This document shows positions 10,076 to 25,778 of a DNA stretch of 34,032 bases, piece by piece. The stretch's first letter is position 1. Every line of letters begins with the position of its first letter. A program made the translations under genes and the position numbers. The stretch is from a bacterium. Its GTDB lineage: Bacteria; Patescibacteriota; Minisyncoccia; Phycocordibacterales; UBA12079. The stretch is taken from the NCBI GenBank assembly GCA_030641525.1, contig DAOWHH010000008.1, forward strand, positions 1-34,032, in the 5' to 3' direction. A model generated the notes under the pieces. That model was not told the origin of the DNA. It ran no database searches and saw only the letters and a list, made by a program, of their open reading frames with translations.

Positions 10076-10104
10076 ATTTACCAGCTATCGGATAGCTGGT
10101 AAAT
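10076..10104. repeat. Short copy of the ccagctatcsgatagctgg palindrome family
   Basis: atttaccagctatc-g-gatagctggtaaat, perfect 14-bp arms. Confidence 0.85.
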
Positions 10105-10130: not shown

Positions 10131-10159
10131 TTGGAATGAAAAATCTTTTATTGTATAAT
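10131..10159 (+). promoter_or_regulatory. Sigma70-like promoter: TTGGAA - 17 nt - TATAAT
   Basis: -35 at 10131-10136, -10 at 10154-10159; an in-frame ATG at 10170 lies where transcription would begin. Confidence 0.6.
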
Positions 10160-11975
10160 GGTAATTGAAATGCTTTTAGATAATAAAAAAGTAGAAGATT
10201 TGCTTTTAGAATTAGGCTTGATTAAGCAAGAAGATTTTGATTTGGCACGACAAGAAATAAGAGAGAATAATAATCTCTGTGATATTTTAATAAGAAAAGG
10301 AAAACTAAATAAAGATGAATTAAGAGATATTCAAATGAAAATAACAGGTATAGATTTTGTTGATTTGAAGAATCAAAAGATTGATGAAAAGATTTTATCT
10401 ATTATTCCAGAACCAATTGCTCGGAAATACAATATAATTGCCTTTGATAGAGATGCTAAAACATTAAAAATAGCTGTTTTAGATATATCTGTTTTAGATG
10501 AAATAGATTTTTTAAAGAAAAATATATCTTTAAGAATAATTCCTTATTTAACCAATGAAGCTTCTATTAATAATAATCTTTTGCGTTATCAAGAATTATT
10601 AAAAAAAGATTATGGATCTGTAATTCAGAAAGAATTTTTATCTTTTCAGACTATTTCAGAAGATTCTATAAAGGATTTCTCAAACGAGAAATTATTAGAA
10701 TTAGCTAGAGATAAGAGAATAAATTTTGTTTTTGATTTATTTATACAATACGCTCTTTCTCAAAATGCTTCTAATATTCATATTGAACCACAAAGAGATA
10801 ATGTTTTGATTAGATATAGGATTGGAGGAGTTTTATATCCAGCTATGTTTTTACCAAAAAACGCTATGTTTATTTTAGCTTTAAAGATAAAAGCATTAGC
10901 AGGTTTATCCGTACAAATGGGTATGAATAAAACCAGCTATCCGATAGCCAGTGACTATCGGATAGCTGGTTTTAATAAAAACCATTGTTTTCAAATGGGT
11001 TTTGATGGTAGAAATGTTGATTTCCAAGTACATATAATTCATACTTTATGGGGAGAAAAAATAGTTTTAAATCTTTTGAGAGATGGGGACTCAGGTTTTT
11101 CTTTAGATTCTTTAGGCTTTCACGGAAAGGCTTTAGATGTTTTATATACAGAGTTAAATAAAAGAAACAAAATGATCTTGATTGCTGGTGATGAAGGTTC
11201 CGGTAAAACTACTTCTTTTTATACTTTTTTGGATTTATTAAAATATTCTAATTTAAATATTACAACCATAGAAAATTCAATTGGTTTTCAGATGTCAGGT
11301 ATAAATCAAATGGTGACTAATTCTGATATATCATTTAATATAGCTAATGGAGTTAAAAAATTAGAAAAACAGGATGTAGATATTATTGGTGTTGATGAAA
11401 TAGAAGATTTTAAAACAATCAAGTCGTTATTTAATGGTACTTATGAAGATAAATTCACTTTAGCTGTTTTAGAAACTAAAGAAAATTCAGGAGCTAAAAT
11501 AATTTCGAAATTATTGAGTGTGGAATTAAGTCCAGCAGCCATAACATCTGGTTTAGGAGTTATTCTTTTGCAAAAAATGTTTCCTAAATTAGATAAAGAA
11601 AATAGTAATGAGTATTATTTGAACGTTTCCGAAATCACAAAATTATCTAAATCTAAAAAAATTGATTTAGAAAAAATAATGGATGCTTTGGTTCAAGAAA
11701 ATATTTTAGAGAAAAAGATTCCTTGGTCACAAGTAAAATTTTATAAATCAGATAAAAATAAAAAAGATTCTTCAGAAAATAATAAAAAAATTATGATAAG
11801 CGAGGTTCTTAAAATAAGTCCAATAGTCAAAGAAATGATTTTAAATAATAAAAATTCTGAGGATATTGAAAAACAGGCATTGAAAGAAGGGATGTTTTCT
11901 TTAGAAGAAGAACTTATTTTTAAAGCTGTGCAAGGTCTCATTAATATAGACTTAATACTTATATATGAAATTTAA
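10158..11975 (+). CDS. Divergent type IV pilus/type II secretion ATPase (PilB/GspE-like); true start probably 10170
   Basis: T2SSE N-terminal-like domain, NIHIEPQRDNVLIRYRIGGVL, Walker A AGDEGSGKTTSFYTFLDLL, Walker B-like VDIIGVDEIED. Confidence 0.85.
   Translation: MVIEMLLDNKKVEDLLLELGLIKQEDFDLARQEIRENNNLCDILIRKGKLNKDELRDIQMKITGIDFVDLKNQKIDEKILSIIPEPIARKYNIIAFDRDAKTLKIAVLDISVLDEIDFLKKNISLRIIPYLTNEASINNNLLRYQELLKKDYGSVIQKEFLSFQTISEDSIKDFSNEKLLELARDKRINFVFDLFIQYALSQNASNIHIEPQRDNVLIRYRIGGVLYPAMFLPKNAMFILALKIKALAGLSVQMGMNKTSYPIASDYRIAGFNKNHCFQMGFDGRNVDFQVHIIHTLWGEKIVLNLLRDGDSGFSLDSLGFHGKALDVLYTELNKRNKMILIAGDEGSGKTTSFYTFLDLLKYSNLNITTIENSIGFQMSGINQMVTNSDISFNIANGVKKLEKQDVDIIGVDEIEDFKTIKSLFNGTYEDKFTLAVLETKENSGAKIISKLLSVELSPAAITSGLGVILLQKMFPKLDKENSNEYYLNVSEITKLSKSKKIDLEKIMDALVQENILEKKIPWSQVKFYKSDKNKKDSSENNKKIMISEVLKISPIVKEMILNNKNSEDIEKQALKEGMFSLEEELIFKAVQGLINIDLILIYEI
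10928..10974. repeat. Long copy of the ccagctatccgatag palindrome, inside the PilB-like CDS
   Basis: taaaaccagctatccgatag-ccagtga-ctatcggatagctggtttta: perfect 20-bp arms, 7-nt loop. Confidence 0.95.
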
Positions 11976-12733: not shown

Positions 12734-12777
12734 AAACCAGCTATCCGATAGCCAGTGGCTATCGGATAGCTGATTTT
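12734..12777. repeat. Third copy of the ccagctatccgatag palindrome, filling the tpiA-pgk spacer
   Basis: aaaccagctatccgatag-ccagtgg-ctatcggatagctgatttt, one arm mismatch, followed by a T run. Confidence 0.9.
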
Positions 12778-17862: not shown

Positions 17863-19359
17863 ATGAATCTTTCTTTTTTCTCCTTTTCAGTCTTATCTTT
17901 TGTAAGTGGTGTAGCTTTTTGTTCTGTTATTGATTTAGGATTTTCTTTTGGTTTATTTTTAATTTTATTAAGTGGAGTTTTGATGATAATAAAAGAACGA
18001 GATTTGTCTTTAAACAAATCTCGTTCTTTTCTTTTTGTTATTTTATTTTTTCTATTTTTTGGACTAGGTTCTTTACGTTGTTCTGTTTCAAACGAAATGT
18101 ATAACGATAAGTTATTAGATAATTTTATTGGAAAAAATATTTCTATGTTAGGAATAATAGTAGAAGAAGCAGATGAAAGAGAAAATCATATTAAATTAAT
18201 TGTAGAAATTTTTGAAATAGAAAATTTAAAAGAATTAAAAACAAAAATTTTATTAACAACTTCACATTATCCGCAATTTAAGTATGGGGATGAAATTAAA
18301 ATTATTGGTGAATTGGAAAAACCAAAAAACTTTCAAACAGATAACGGAAAAGATTTTGATTATATTTCTTATTTGAAAAAAGATAAAGTATTTTACTTAA
18401 GTTTTTTTCCAGAAGTAGAATTTGTGTCTGAAGGAAATGGAAATATTATAAAAGAAAAATTATTTACTCTTAAATATTTATTTTTAGAAAAGGTTAGAAA
18501 AACAATTCCAGAACCACAAGTTTCTTTATTAGGAGGATTATTATTAGGTTCAAAACAATCTTTAGGAGAAGAGTTACAGGAAGACTTTCGAAAAGTTGGT
18601 TTGATTCATGTTGTGGTTTTATCTGGATACAATGTAAGTATTATTGCAGGATCTATTTTAGCTTTTCTTTCATTTCTTCCACAAATGATTGGAATGATCT
18701 TAGGGTCTTTGGGTATAATTCTATTTGCCATTATGGTAGGAGGGACAGCCACGATTATTAGAGCTTCTATTATGGCCTTATTAGTAATATTAGCTAGAGC
18801 CACAGGGAGAGAGTCTGAAGTTATTAGAGCCTTATTTTTAGCTGGGTTTTTGATGATTTTGTATAATCCTCAAATAGTAGTATTTGATCCTTCTTTTCAA
18901 TTATCTTTTATGGCTACTCTAGGTTTAATTTGTTTATCTTCAAAAATTTCTAATGTTTTTAAATTCATTCCACAAAAATTTTATTTAAGAGAATCGGCAA
19001 CAGCAACCATATCAACTCAAGTTTTTGTTTTACCGCTTTTGTTATATATGACAGGAGAATTATCTTTAGTATCTGTTTTTGTAAATTTATTAGTTTTAAT
19101 GTTTATTCCTGTCACAATGTTATTTGGATTTCTAACAGGTGTAATTTCTTTTGTTTCAATTTACTTATCTTTACCTTTTTCTTATATCACATGTTTTTTA
19201 TTAAGTTATGAATTAAAAATAGTTGAGTTATTTTCAAATTTACCTTTAGCGTCAATTAAAATTTCATATTTTCCTTTTTGGTTATTAATTATTTTTTATT
19301 TAATTTATTTTTTTGTTTTCAAAAACTTTTTAGCAAAAGAAAAAACAAAATTTGGCTAA
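17863..19359 (+). CDS. comEC: ComEC/Rec2-type competence channel (no C-terminal nuclease domain)
   Basis: GLLLGSKQSLGEELQEDFRKVGLIHVVVLSGYNVSIIAG; multiple TM segments. Confidence 0.93.
   Translation: MNLSFFSFSVLSFVSGVAFCSVIDLGFSFGLFLILLSGVLMIIKERDLSLNKSRSFLFVILFFLFFGLGSLRCSVSNEMYNDKLLDNFIGKNISMLGIIVEEADERENHIKLIVEIFEIENLKELKTKILLTTSHYPQFKYGDEIKIIGELEKPKNFQTDNGKDFDYISYLKKDKVFYLSFFPEVEFVSEGNGNIIKEKLFTLKYLFLEKVRKTIPEPQVSLLGGLLLGSKQSLGEELQEDFRKVGLIHVVVLSGYNVSIIAGSILAFLSFLPQMIGMILGSLGIILFAIMVGGTATIIRASIMALLVILARATGRESEVIRALFLAGFLMILYNPQIVVFDPSFQLSFMATLGLICLSSKISNVFKFIPQKFYLRESATATISTQVFVLPLLLYMTGELSLVSVFVNLLVLMFIPVTMLFGFLTGVISFVSIYLSLPFSYITCFLLSYELKIVELFSNLPLASIKISYFPFWLLIIFYLIYFFVFKNFLAKEKTKFG
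17991..18030. repeat. Perfect 17-bp arm palindrome inside comEC
   Basis: aaaagaacgagatttgt-ctttaa-acaaatctcgttctttt. Confidence 0.9.
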
Positions 19360-19416
19360 AACATCTTTGCGTAACAAAGATGTTCGCCCAAACATTTTTT
19401 GTGGGAAATGTTTTAG
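19355..19416. repeat. Two conserved-junction hairpin modules downstream of comEC
   Basis: GGCTAAAACATCtttgcgtaacaaaGATGTTCGCCCaAACATTttttgtgggAAATGTTTTAGG. Confidence 0.8.
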
Positions 19417-19420
19417 GAAA

Positions 19421-22058: not shown

Positions 22059-22144
22059 TTCGATTCCCACCGTCTCTCACAAACGCAAACGACACCAAAG
22101 CATTGCTTTGGTGTCGGCGTTTTGTGGAGACGGTGGGAATCGAA
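22059..22144. repeat. Imperfect inverted repeat duplicating the tmRNA 3' end
   Basis: ttcgattcccaccgtctctcacaaacgcaaacgacaccaaagc / gctttggtgtcggcgttttgtggagacggtgggaatcgaa. Confidence 0.85.
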
Positions 22145-22515
22145 CCCACATGTGACAATACTTTTAATATGATTCTACAATATATAGATTATTTTTTTGT
22201 TTTAAATGAAGAAAATAAGAAATAATCAAAAACATTCTTCATCGATTTTCTTAGTTTCGAAAATTTGCTGAAAAGGTTCAAATTTTTATATCCTGAAAAT
22301 ATTATGCCGAGATAGATTTATCAGAAATCAATCCATCCGACACCAGTCGCTTTTTAAGCAAAAGCTAGAGCTGGAGTAGAGAAGTAAGGCGAAGCCATTC
22401 TTCCTACTTTCTTAGATAAGTCTGCACTTAATCTGTTCTATTTTTTAACGAGTATAATAGAAATCTCGATATTGCACATAATAAAGGAATATTACCAGCG
22501 AAGCCGATCATCCCC
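22125..22515 (-). ncRNA. ssrA: Transfer-messenger RNA (tmRNA), CCA not encoded
   Basis: 5' GGGGATGATCGGCTTCGCTGG pairs with 3' GGGTTCGATTCCCACCGTCTCCA; internal tag frame ends ...STPALAFA-stop; near smpB. Confidence 0.9.
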
Positions 22516-22520
22516 CTAAA

Positions 22521-22582
22521 ACATTTCATGAAAGACTATTTTCTGAATTTTAAAATTCAGAAAATAGTCTTTCATGAAATGT
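22521..22582. repeat. Perfect 62-bp palindrome (31-bp arms, no spacer)
   Basis: acatttcatgaaagactattttctgaatttt|aaaattcagaaaatagtctttcatgaaatgt. Confidence 0.97.
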
Positions 22583-22590
22583 TCGGGCGA

Positions 22591-22650
22591 ACATCTTTTA
22601 TTCTATAATTTTTAAGATTTTAATCTTAAAAATTATAGAATAAAAGATGT
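22591..22650. repeat. 60-bp palindrome (29-bp arms, 2-nt centre)
   Basis: acatcttttattctataatttttaagatt-tt-aatcttaaaaattatagaataaaagatgt. Confidence 0.97.
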
Positions 22651-22712
22651 TTTAGCCATAAAACCGTTATTAACGATTCGGGCTAGCCACAAAACATTCT
22701 AATGCTTTAGGC
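22651..22712. repeat. Two further, weaker hairpin modules of the same series
   Basis: GCCataaAACCGTTattAACGATTcGGGC and GCCacAAAACATTctAATGCTTTaGGC. Confidence 0.55.
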
Positions 22713-22725
22713 GGGTGACCAAAAA

Positions 22726-22992
22726 TTATATTAATTGTTTTAAATATTTTGTTTTAATTTGTTTTTTAAATCGTGCTCCCCAAAGACTTTTCAAAAACCT
22801 TTCTTTATTGAATGCTTCTTCTTTATCTTCAAACTTTTCATAATGTATTAAAACTAAAGGTTTTCGATGTTTCGTAGCTTTTATATTGCCTTTATTATGT
22901 CTTTCTAATCTTTTCTCTATATTAGAGGTACACCCCACATAAAGTTTTTGGTCTTTTTTACTAAACAATATATAAACAAAATATTTTTCCAT
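22726..22992 (-). CDS. GIY-YIG domain nuclease-like protein
   Basis: KYFVYILFSKKDQKLYVGCTSNIEKRLERHNKG, typical small single-domain GIY-YIG protein. Confidence 0.92.
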   Translation of the reverse strand: MEKYFVYILFSKKDQKLYVGCTSNIEKRLERHNKGNIKATKHRKPLVLIHYEKFEDKEEAFNKERFLKSLWGARFKKQIKTKYLKQLI

Positions 22993-23005: not shown

Positions 23006-23458
23006 CTATCTATATCTATCTTTCATTTCTCTATCTATATCTCTTTGTATATCTTTCTTTTTTATAGTTTCTCTCTTATCGTATTTTTTCTTTCCTTTCA
23101 CAACGGCTATTTCTAACTTGATTTTATTCCCCTTATTATACATTGAAACTGGGATAATTGTCAATCCCTTTTGAGCTTCTAAATTAGCTAGATGTGAAAT
23201 CTGTTTTTTACTTAATAAAAGGATTCTATTTCGCTTTGAGTCATAATCTAAAGGGGTGTTTTTGGGTTGGTAGGGTGGAATATTGGAATTAAATAATATA
23301 GCTTCATCTCCTCTAATACTGATATGAGAACCTTCAAGAGACCCTTTCTTTCCTTTAATAGATTTCACCTCAAAACCAAGCAATTTTATTCCTGCTTCTA
23401 ATTTCTCTAAAATCTCATATTTTAGTCCTATTTTTTTGTTCTTTATGAATATTGTCAT
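23006..23458 (-). CDS. smpB: SsrA-binding protein SmpB
   Basis: NKKIGLKYEILEKLEAGIKLLGFEVKSIKGKKGSLEGSHISI...DKRETIKKKDIQRDIDREMKDR. Confidence 0.97.
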   Translation of the reverse strand: MTIFIKNKKIGLKYEILEKLEAGIKLLGFEVKSIKGKKGSLEGSHISIRGDEAILFNSNIPPYQPKNTPLDYDSKRNRILLLSKKQISHLANLEAQKGLTIIPVSMYNKGNKIKLEIAVVKGKKKYDKRETIKKKDIQRDIDREMKDRYR

Positions 23459-25650: not shown

Positions 25651-25778
25651 AAAAAATTTGCTCTCTAAATCAAAACTTTGTTTTAATCCTAAATTAAAAC
25701 TTTGTTTTAATCGGACGAACATCAAAGATGTTTTAGTCGGACGAACATTCTTCAAAGTGTTTTAGTCGCAAATTTTTT
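25651..25778. repeat. Multi-hairpin element closed by an 11-bp outer stem
   Basis: aaaaaatttgc ... gcaaatttttt enclose four hairpins, two being GGACGAACAT..ATGTTTTAGTC modules. Confidence 0.8.

Follow-up and report, generated by a model that had tools for sequence, protein, structure and literature searches.

Double-hairpin modules of Parcubacteria are probably non-autonomous insertion elements with a centre complementary to their flanks

Rickettsia palindromic elements insert in RNA genes as well as in protein genes, and to our knowledge no transposase of their own is known. Together with their Wolbachia counterparts, they are described as short palindromic insertions that lie in frame in unrelated bacterial genes (PMC10969869). 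The available text of two further reports describes yeast mitochondrial GC clusters and Allomyces double-hairpin elements as palindromic or two-hairpin mobile DNA of sporadic occurrence, with 2-bp AG direct repeats in the yeast clusters and with hairpins that merge and shuffle, for which help from intron endonucleases was proposed (PMC4478555, PMC7218506). The rRNA genes of CPR bacteria carry short ORF-less insertions at the tops or bases of stem-loops, some of them with GIY-YIG (PMC11270868); palindromes, tRNA and tmRNA are not mentioned in the main text of that report, and these insertions are possibly in part the same phenomenon as the elements studied here. No earlier description of the double-hairpin element was found in the open-access literature searched. 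The statement of an earlier note on this DNA that no named class fits holds for the architecture within that literature, but close functional analogues are known in the Rickettsia elements, the GC clusters and the double-hairpin elements.

The anatomy of these modules, their flank-centre complementarity, their insertion into genes relative to homologues, their exact placement at tRNA and tmRNA 5' ends and their restriction to one lineage were established here at the level of sequence. Like the Rickettsia palindromic elements, the Parcubacteria elements insert in frame in conserved protein genes (8 loci, 7 genes). The former are about 150 bp long and form conserved sequence and peptide families, whereas the latter have free sequence with fixed joints only, in a two-hairpin unit of about 50-140 bp whose centre is complementary to the target; they are not Rickettsia palindromic elements, since they have neither the conserved sequence nor the conserved peptide. 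Adjacent hairpins and a sporadic distribution are shared with the mitochondrial GC clusters and double-hairpin elements (113 doubles; 158 genomes of the order), and a 2-bp direct repeat at the insertion sites with the GC clusters (tabulated flanks; a net 60 nt relative to genome G419). These counterparts are however mitochondrial, the available text about them reports no centre-to-flank complementarity, and the likeness is one of description only.

The window, which is the whole analysed stretch of 34,032 nucleotides, contained all three sites for which a common frame had been claimed. Counted with its two 3-nt flanks (CCC ... GCC), the double-hairpin element upstream of tmRNA occupied 22514..22657 with no strand assigned. 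On the + strand it read CCC-TAA-[64 nt hairpin]-C-GGGC-G-[62 nt hairpin]-TTA-GCC, both hairpins being perfect palindromes. The left flank CCC (22514..22516), whose partner is the GGG of the centre, was followed by the constant TAA joint (22517..22519), hairpin A (22520..22583, a perfect palindrome with a variable stem), the joint C-GGGC-G (22584..22589) with the shared centre complementary to both flanks, hairpin B (22590..22651, a perfect inverted repeat with a variable stem), the constant TTA joint (22652..22654) and the right flank GCC (22655..22657), whose partner is the GGC of the centre. As single-stranded DNA this element had a folding energy of -58.1 kcal/mol, compared with -10.9 for shuffles (z = -19). 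Three genes on the minus strand made up its surroundings: the tmRNA gene (22124..22515), whose mature 5' end abuts the element at a gap of 1 nt; a GIY-YIG nuclease gene (22726..22992; 88-aa protein at 22729-22992) of the clade that adjoins tmRNA elements, a candidate mobiliser; and smpB (23006..23458), the fixed upstream neighbour of the GIY-YIG/element/tmRNA locus. An Rfam 15 scan of the window matched only tmRNA and tRNAs, with no match over the element. The second double element (19354..19418; centre GCCC, flanks GGC/GGA) was slightly degenerate, with A for G after the centre and one mismatched base in the 3' flank, and its TAA was the stop codon of a comEC-like ORF (17863-19359). The third copy (25712-25767) belonged to a four-hairpin array of the GGAC/GTCC type (25653..25776; modules 25666-25688, 25690-25712, 25717-25735 and 25743-25764) closed by AAAATTTGC / GCAAATTTT. 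Arrays of this sub-family, with the same extra outer repeat, were common to at least two genera (25653-25776; L001, L002, L009, L015, L033, L042). A second, unrelated palindrome family, AACCAGCTATCCGATAGC.. / ..GCTATCGGATAGCTGGTT, was also observed in the window (10080-10100, 10916-10986 and 12734-12776) and in L003, L074 and L083; its copy at 10916 lay in frame within a T2SSE (pilB-like) ORF (10158-11975).

The module consensus was NNN-TAA-[A..stem..T]-C-NNNN-G-[A..stem..T]-TTA-NNN. A search of 2.0 Mb of fetched DNA with the pattern TAA-[A..T hairpin]-C-N4-G-[hairpin]-TTA, which leaves the flanks unconstrained, yielded 113 distinct double modules, whereas the reversed sequence gave 0; 94 came from the first search and the full number once more loci had been added and the stems slightly loosened, and elements at orthologous sites are non-independent within these counts. 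Half-modules whose stem sequence was not fixed numbered 29 in 400 kb of the relative G036 (0 reversed) and 30 in stretches of the own genome (1 reversed). The enrichment proposed in the earlier note as a check was evident Parcubacteria-wide and genome-wide, where CTAAAACAT-N0-30-ATGTTCG had 16 matches within 585 kb of genome and 0 with the pattern read backwards, far above chance. Its picture of constant joints with freely replaceable stems was likewise borne out by the 113 doubles, in which the stems measured from a few bp to about 30 bp and mostly had no recognisable likeness beyond their bases. A kept AACAT/ATGTT stem base had also been claimed; AACAT was common but not constant, and the fixed parts were TAA-A...T-C, the shared centre and the 3-nt flanks.

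The covariation noted earlier for the outer pairs proved real, but the pairs run from flank to centre, and each half of a double module uses three of the four central bases. The 5' flank bases -1, -2 and -3 paired with central bases 1-3 in 113, 112 and 110 of the 113 doubles, compared with only 29 for base -4. On the 3' side, the first three flank bases paired with the centre in 109, 110 and 108 cases and the fourth in 31. Altogether 662 of 678 flank-centre pairs were observed, against a mean of 412 and a maximum of 475 when centres were shuffled among elements. GGGC and GCCC were the most frequent centres, a frequency biased to GGGC by loci L167-L239, which were fetched with a CCC/AACAT pattern; GGAC, GAGC, GCAC, GGCC and ACCC were also present with matching flanks. 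Within copy families of near-identical stems, centre and flanks switched together, as between L075 (GGGC with CCC/GCC) and L085 (GAGC with CTC/GCT), and the group of L005, L008 and L012 likewise retained its stems while centre and flanks changed together. The module can equally be read as C-TAA...TTA-G with a 2-bp direct repeat on either side, its sequence reverse-complementary to the middle two bases of the centre; this repeat was usually GG/CC, with TC/GA, AG/CT, CA/TG and GC also found.

Judged from sequence matches, the double-hairpin elements are restricted to the Parcubacteria (Paceibacteria) lineage. A scan of 85,462 species genomes with an exact pattern returned 73 stretches, and all those with a taxon name were Parcubacteria or simply Patescibacteria, including Nomura-, Taylor-, Zambryski-, Yonath-, Yanofsky-, Harrison-, Kaiser- and Lloydbacteria. 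With a stricter pattern, 28 of the 158 genomes of the order were matched compared with 3 control matches, indicating sporadic presence. In a sample of the phylum Patescibacteria, most of the matches listed outside the own order looked like chance, without pairing stems, and the strict pattern gave 0 matches in viral contigs.

An ORF scan of the element loci identified eight elements in frame within seven recognisable genes, namely leuS, a glycosyltransferase, tsaD, an Ile/Val-type tRNA synthetase, a TraD-like coupling ATPase, uvrA and a tRNA_bind-domain protein, the last with an element at the same site in two genomes; cases inside short or extended frames were left out of this count. The length from TAA to TTA was 2 mod 3 in 8/8 in-gene elements and spread over all three classes outside ORFs, so the C, the G and the 2-bp duplication restore the frame. 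Because ORF detection itself favours in-frame elements, the comparison with homologues carries the weight for insertion. The insert was missing from homologues of the four genes compared. In the tRNA_bind gene, a single GGG codon in G419 corresponded to GGG-CTA...TTA-GGG in G036, a net difference of 60 nt. LeuRS homologues in ten genomes were without the insert of G000, three of the ten having other, shorter sequence there, and the alignments with UvrA and TsaD PDB chains ran up to the insert and resumed after it. The encoded peptides differed between in-gene elements. No pair of strains was found in which one site is empty in one and occupied in the other; taken from homologous genes at species distance or more, these comparisons make it very probable that the double-hairpin modules are insertions and act as an insertion element. 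Separately, an RNase P RNA gene (L173:4444-4903) was found to be enlarged by two double-hairpin elements inside it.

A tRNA or tmRNA 5' end lay at a gap of 0-1 nt from 37 of the 113 doubles; one further element had a gap of 28 and none fell between, while three doubles abutted 3' ends. At 22 of the 37 the RNA was tmRNA, and many of these 22 probably go back to one old locus; at the other 15 it was tRNA-Glu, Ala, Ser, Trp or Thr, with neighbour genes called by ARAGORN and simple ORF calls. In the 400 kb stretch of G036, which was not selected for matches, 2 of 13 doubles stood at such 5' ends (chance P about 8e-5). A likely cause of this exact placement would be that G1G2 of the RNA serves as the target: with these two bases duplicated the RNA stays whole, while insertion at neighbouring sites would destroy it or find no GG. 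A different long inverted repeat (for example TTGCCGTATCC ... GGATATGGCAA) was observed directly before the tmRNA 5' end in another genus of the family (L120, L122, L125, L127).

These 37 positions, including the 22 tmRNA cases with diverged yet fully paired stems, would also suit a structured RNA or processing signal under selection, a double-hairpin 5' leader of tRNA and tmRNA precursors serving as an RNase P or stability signal and occurring elsewhere too. Such a leader is unlikely to be the explanation. Two thirds of the doubles lie elsewhere, including in frame in coding genes and inside RNase P RNA, and the earlier suggestion of a purely structured RNA family fits poorly with insertions inside coding genes. 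The tmRNA of close relatives (G003, G004, G007-G010) has no element, the acceptor stem of a tRNA would face competition from flank-centre pairing, and the element has no RNA polarity because it is symmetric. A mobile or recognised site, the other half of the earlier suggestion, is supported by the in-frame gene insertions, the 2-bp repeats and the tRNA 5' ends.

If the modules are mobile, REP/BIME-like palindromes, or palindromes derived from IS200/IS605, come to mind, with a Y1 (HUH) transposase such as RAYT as their mobiliser and with pairing between guide and cleavage site. An internal guide paired with both flanks follows the guide logic of IS200/IS605, a resemblance in logic that extends to a short internal guide pairing with the flanking target (662/678 pairs); as in REP/BIME, the elements are dispersed, often intergenic inverted pairs of palindromes, and Y1_Tnp (PF01797) genes occurred in 27 of 41 relatives. 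The gene numbers did not follow the elements, however, so that the co-occurrence with Y1/REP-type transposases named in the earlier note as a check did not emerge: G024 and G029 (5 and 4 matches) were without Y1, and G036 had 9 matches and one Y1. No canonical module was found in the scan beside the Y1 gene on contig C9 of the own genome, the other Y1 gene lying at a contig end, and no TnpA Y1 gene within or beside elements was among the 25 families listed for neighbour genes. Unlike in IS200/IS605, the guide is placed 3' of the left hairpin, with direct repeats on both sides of the element; unlike REP/BIME-RAYT, there is no conserved GTAG-like 5' tetranucleotide, the flanks vary with the centre and the stems are free. 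The Y1/RAYT linkage was rejected on its lack of a numerical tie to element number among relatives, and this origin is quite improbable.

Still less probable is a reading as sites at which a site-specific recombinase (a serine recombinase, IS607- or attC-like) acts through a 2-bp core. The 2-bp direct repeats with their matching central dinucleotide would agree with such sites, and a hairpin with bulges recalls attC, but the integron R-box consensus (RYYYAAC / GTTRRRY) is absent, the joints being TAA-A...T-C (TAAAAC/GTTCG), and the insertions sit in essential genes. G026, which has 7 element matches, contained no PF00239, a family that was common in element-free genomes; serine recombinases were rejected for want of a numerical tie to the elements. 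Bidirectional transcription terminators at gene ends can be dismissed almost entirely: the hairpins are strong and many lie between genes, but they have no T-run after them, stand directly before tRNA/tmRNA, within reading frames and within RNase P RNA, would leave flank-centre complementarity unexplained, and in coding genes already imply read-through RNA.

Among these readings, non-autonomous double-hairpin insertion elements of Parcubacteria (Paceibacteria) are the probable identity of the modules, which seem to constitute an undescribed family of miniature mobile elements. Their CTAA...TTAG ends and 2-bp repeats parallel the terminal inverted repeats and target duplication of a MITE, and the sole gene seen that could stand for a MITE-type autonomous partner was the GIY-YIG gene beside tmRNA copies. 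This protein of about 90 aa was the one exception among otherwise ordinary genes adjoining elements. A model of its clade recovered nine of the 158 genomes of the order at E <= 1e-36, followed by a gap to 1.9e-29, and in 9/9 the gene lay between smpB-side sequence and tmRNA (smpB-GIY-[hairpins]-tmRNA), with smpB identified through Pfam in the window and at three other loci. The hairpins 3' of the gene were a canonical double element in seven of the nine loci and variant hairpins in two. The tmRNA loci of own-family relatives without the element (G003, G004, G006-G010) were also without a gene of the clade, and G004 had another GIY-YIG gene on the 3' side of its tmRNA locus. Dispersed elements were found in 6 of the 9 genomes with the clade and in 19 of the 149 without it (Fisher p 5e-4, uncorrected for kinship). 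Against this association, several genomes, among them G026, G438 and G288, had elements without the clade, G002 had a tmRNA element without a clade gene, and the co-location with tmRNA may be explained by vertical synteny or shared ancestry. An apparently decayed GIY-YIG gene adjoined an intact tmRNA element at L172:6430-6700, which suggests that loss of the gene can precede loss of the element. In addition, GIY-YIG paralogues of Parcubacteria ended at or no more than about 15 nt from tRNA 5' ends (Ala, Pro, Tyr, Asn, Ser, Glu, Gln, Thr) at about ten loci (L266, L269, L275/L305, L276, L281, L283, L296, L303, L306, L307), as if these ends acted as home sites for GIY-YIG genes.

A possible mechanism can be outlined for the insertion elements. 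The inserted unit would be C-TAA-[hairpin A]-C-G-NN-C-G-[hairpin B]-TTA-G between 2-bp direct repeats N'N', where N'N' is the reverse complement of the central NN. The acting form may be an exposed, folded single strand in which the hairpins and TAA/C bulges serve as a protein-binding frame, and such a frame would leave the stems replaceable as long as they are paired. Alternatively, template-switch repair, and not a binding protein, could be what keeps the long stems perfect. The target might be selected through its pairing with the central bases, or the centre might be copied from the target on insertion; both fit the data, and the proposal that base pairing sets or copies the target has about an even chance of being correct. 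Insertion would be tolerated at G1G2 of tRNA and tmRNA and at Gly codons, since duplication of the 2 bp re-creates the RNA end or the frame. For the enzyme, the YhbQ-like GIY-YIG nuclease whose gene lies between smpB and the tmRNA element is put forward as the best candidate mobiliser, but only tentatively, its involvement being possible rather than likely. More doubtful still is a complete two-part homing system, in which the tmRNA-housed GIY-YIG protein would move the stem-replaceable elements in trans and the element centre would choose or rewrite the target by pairing.

If true, such a system would represent DNA insertion guided by the pairing of a few bases, and tRNA and tmRNA 5' ends would be its home sites. 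The GIY-YIG/tmRNA locus provides a concrete enzyme candidate for those palindromic elements of bacteria and mitochondria that have no known mover, and the flank-centre pairing opens target choice by base pairing to a direct test. As probable insertion elements, these widespread miniature units would alter essential proteins, RNase P RNA and the leaders of tRNA and tmRNA in a bacterial group that is among the largest still uncultured, and they stand in genomes that are thought to be streamlined.
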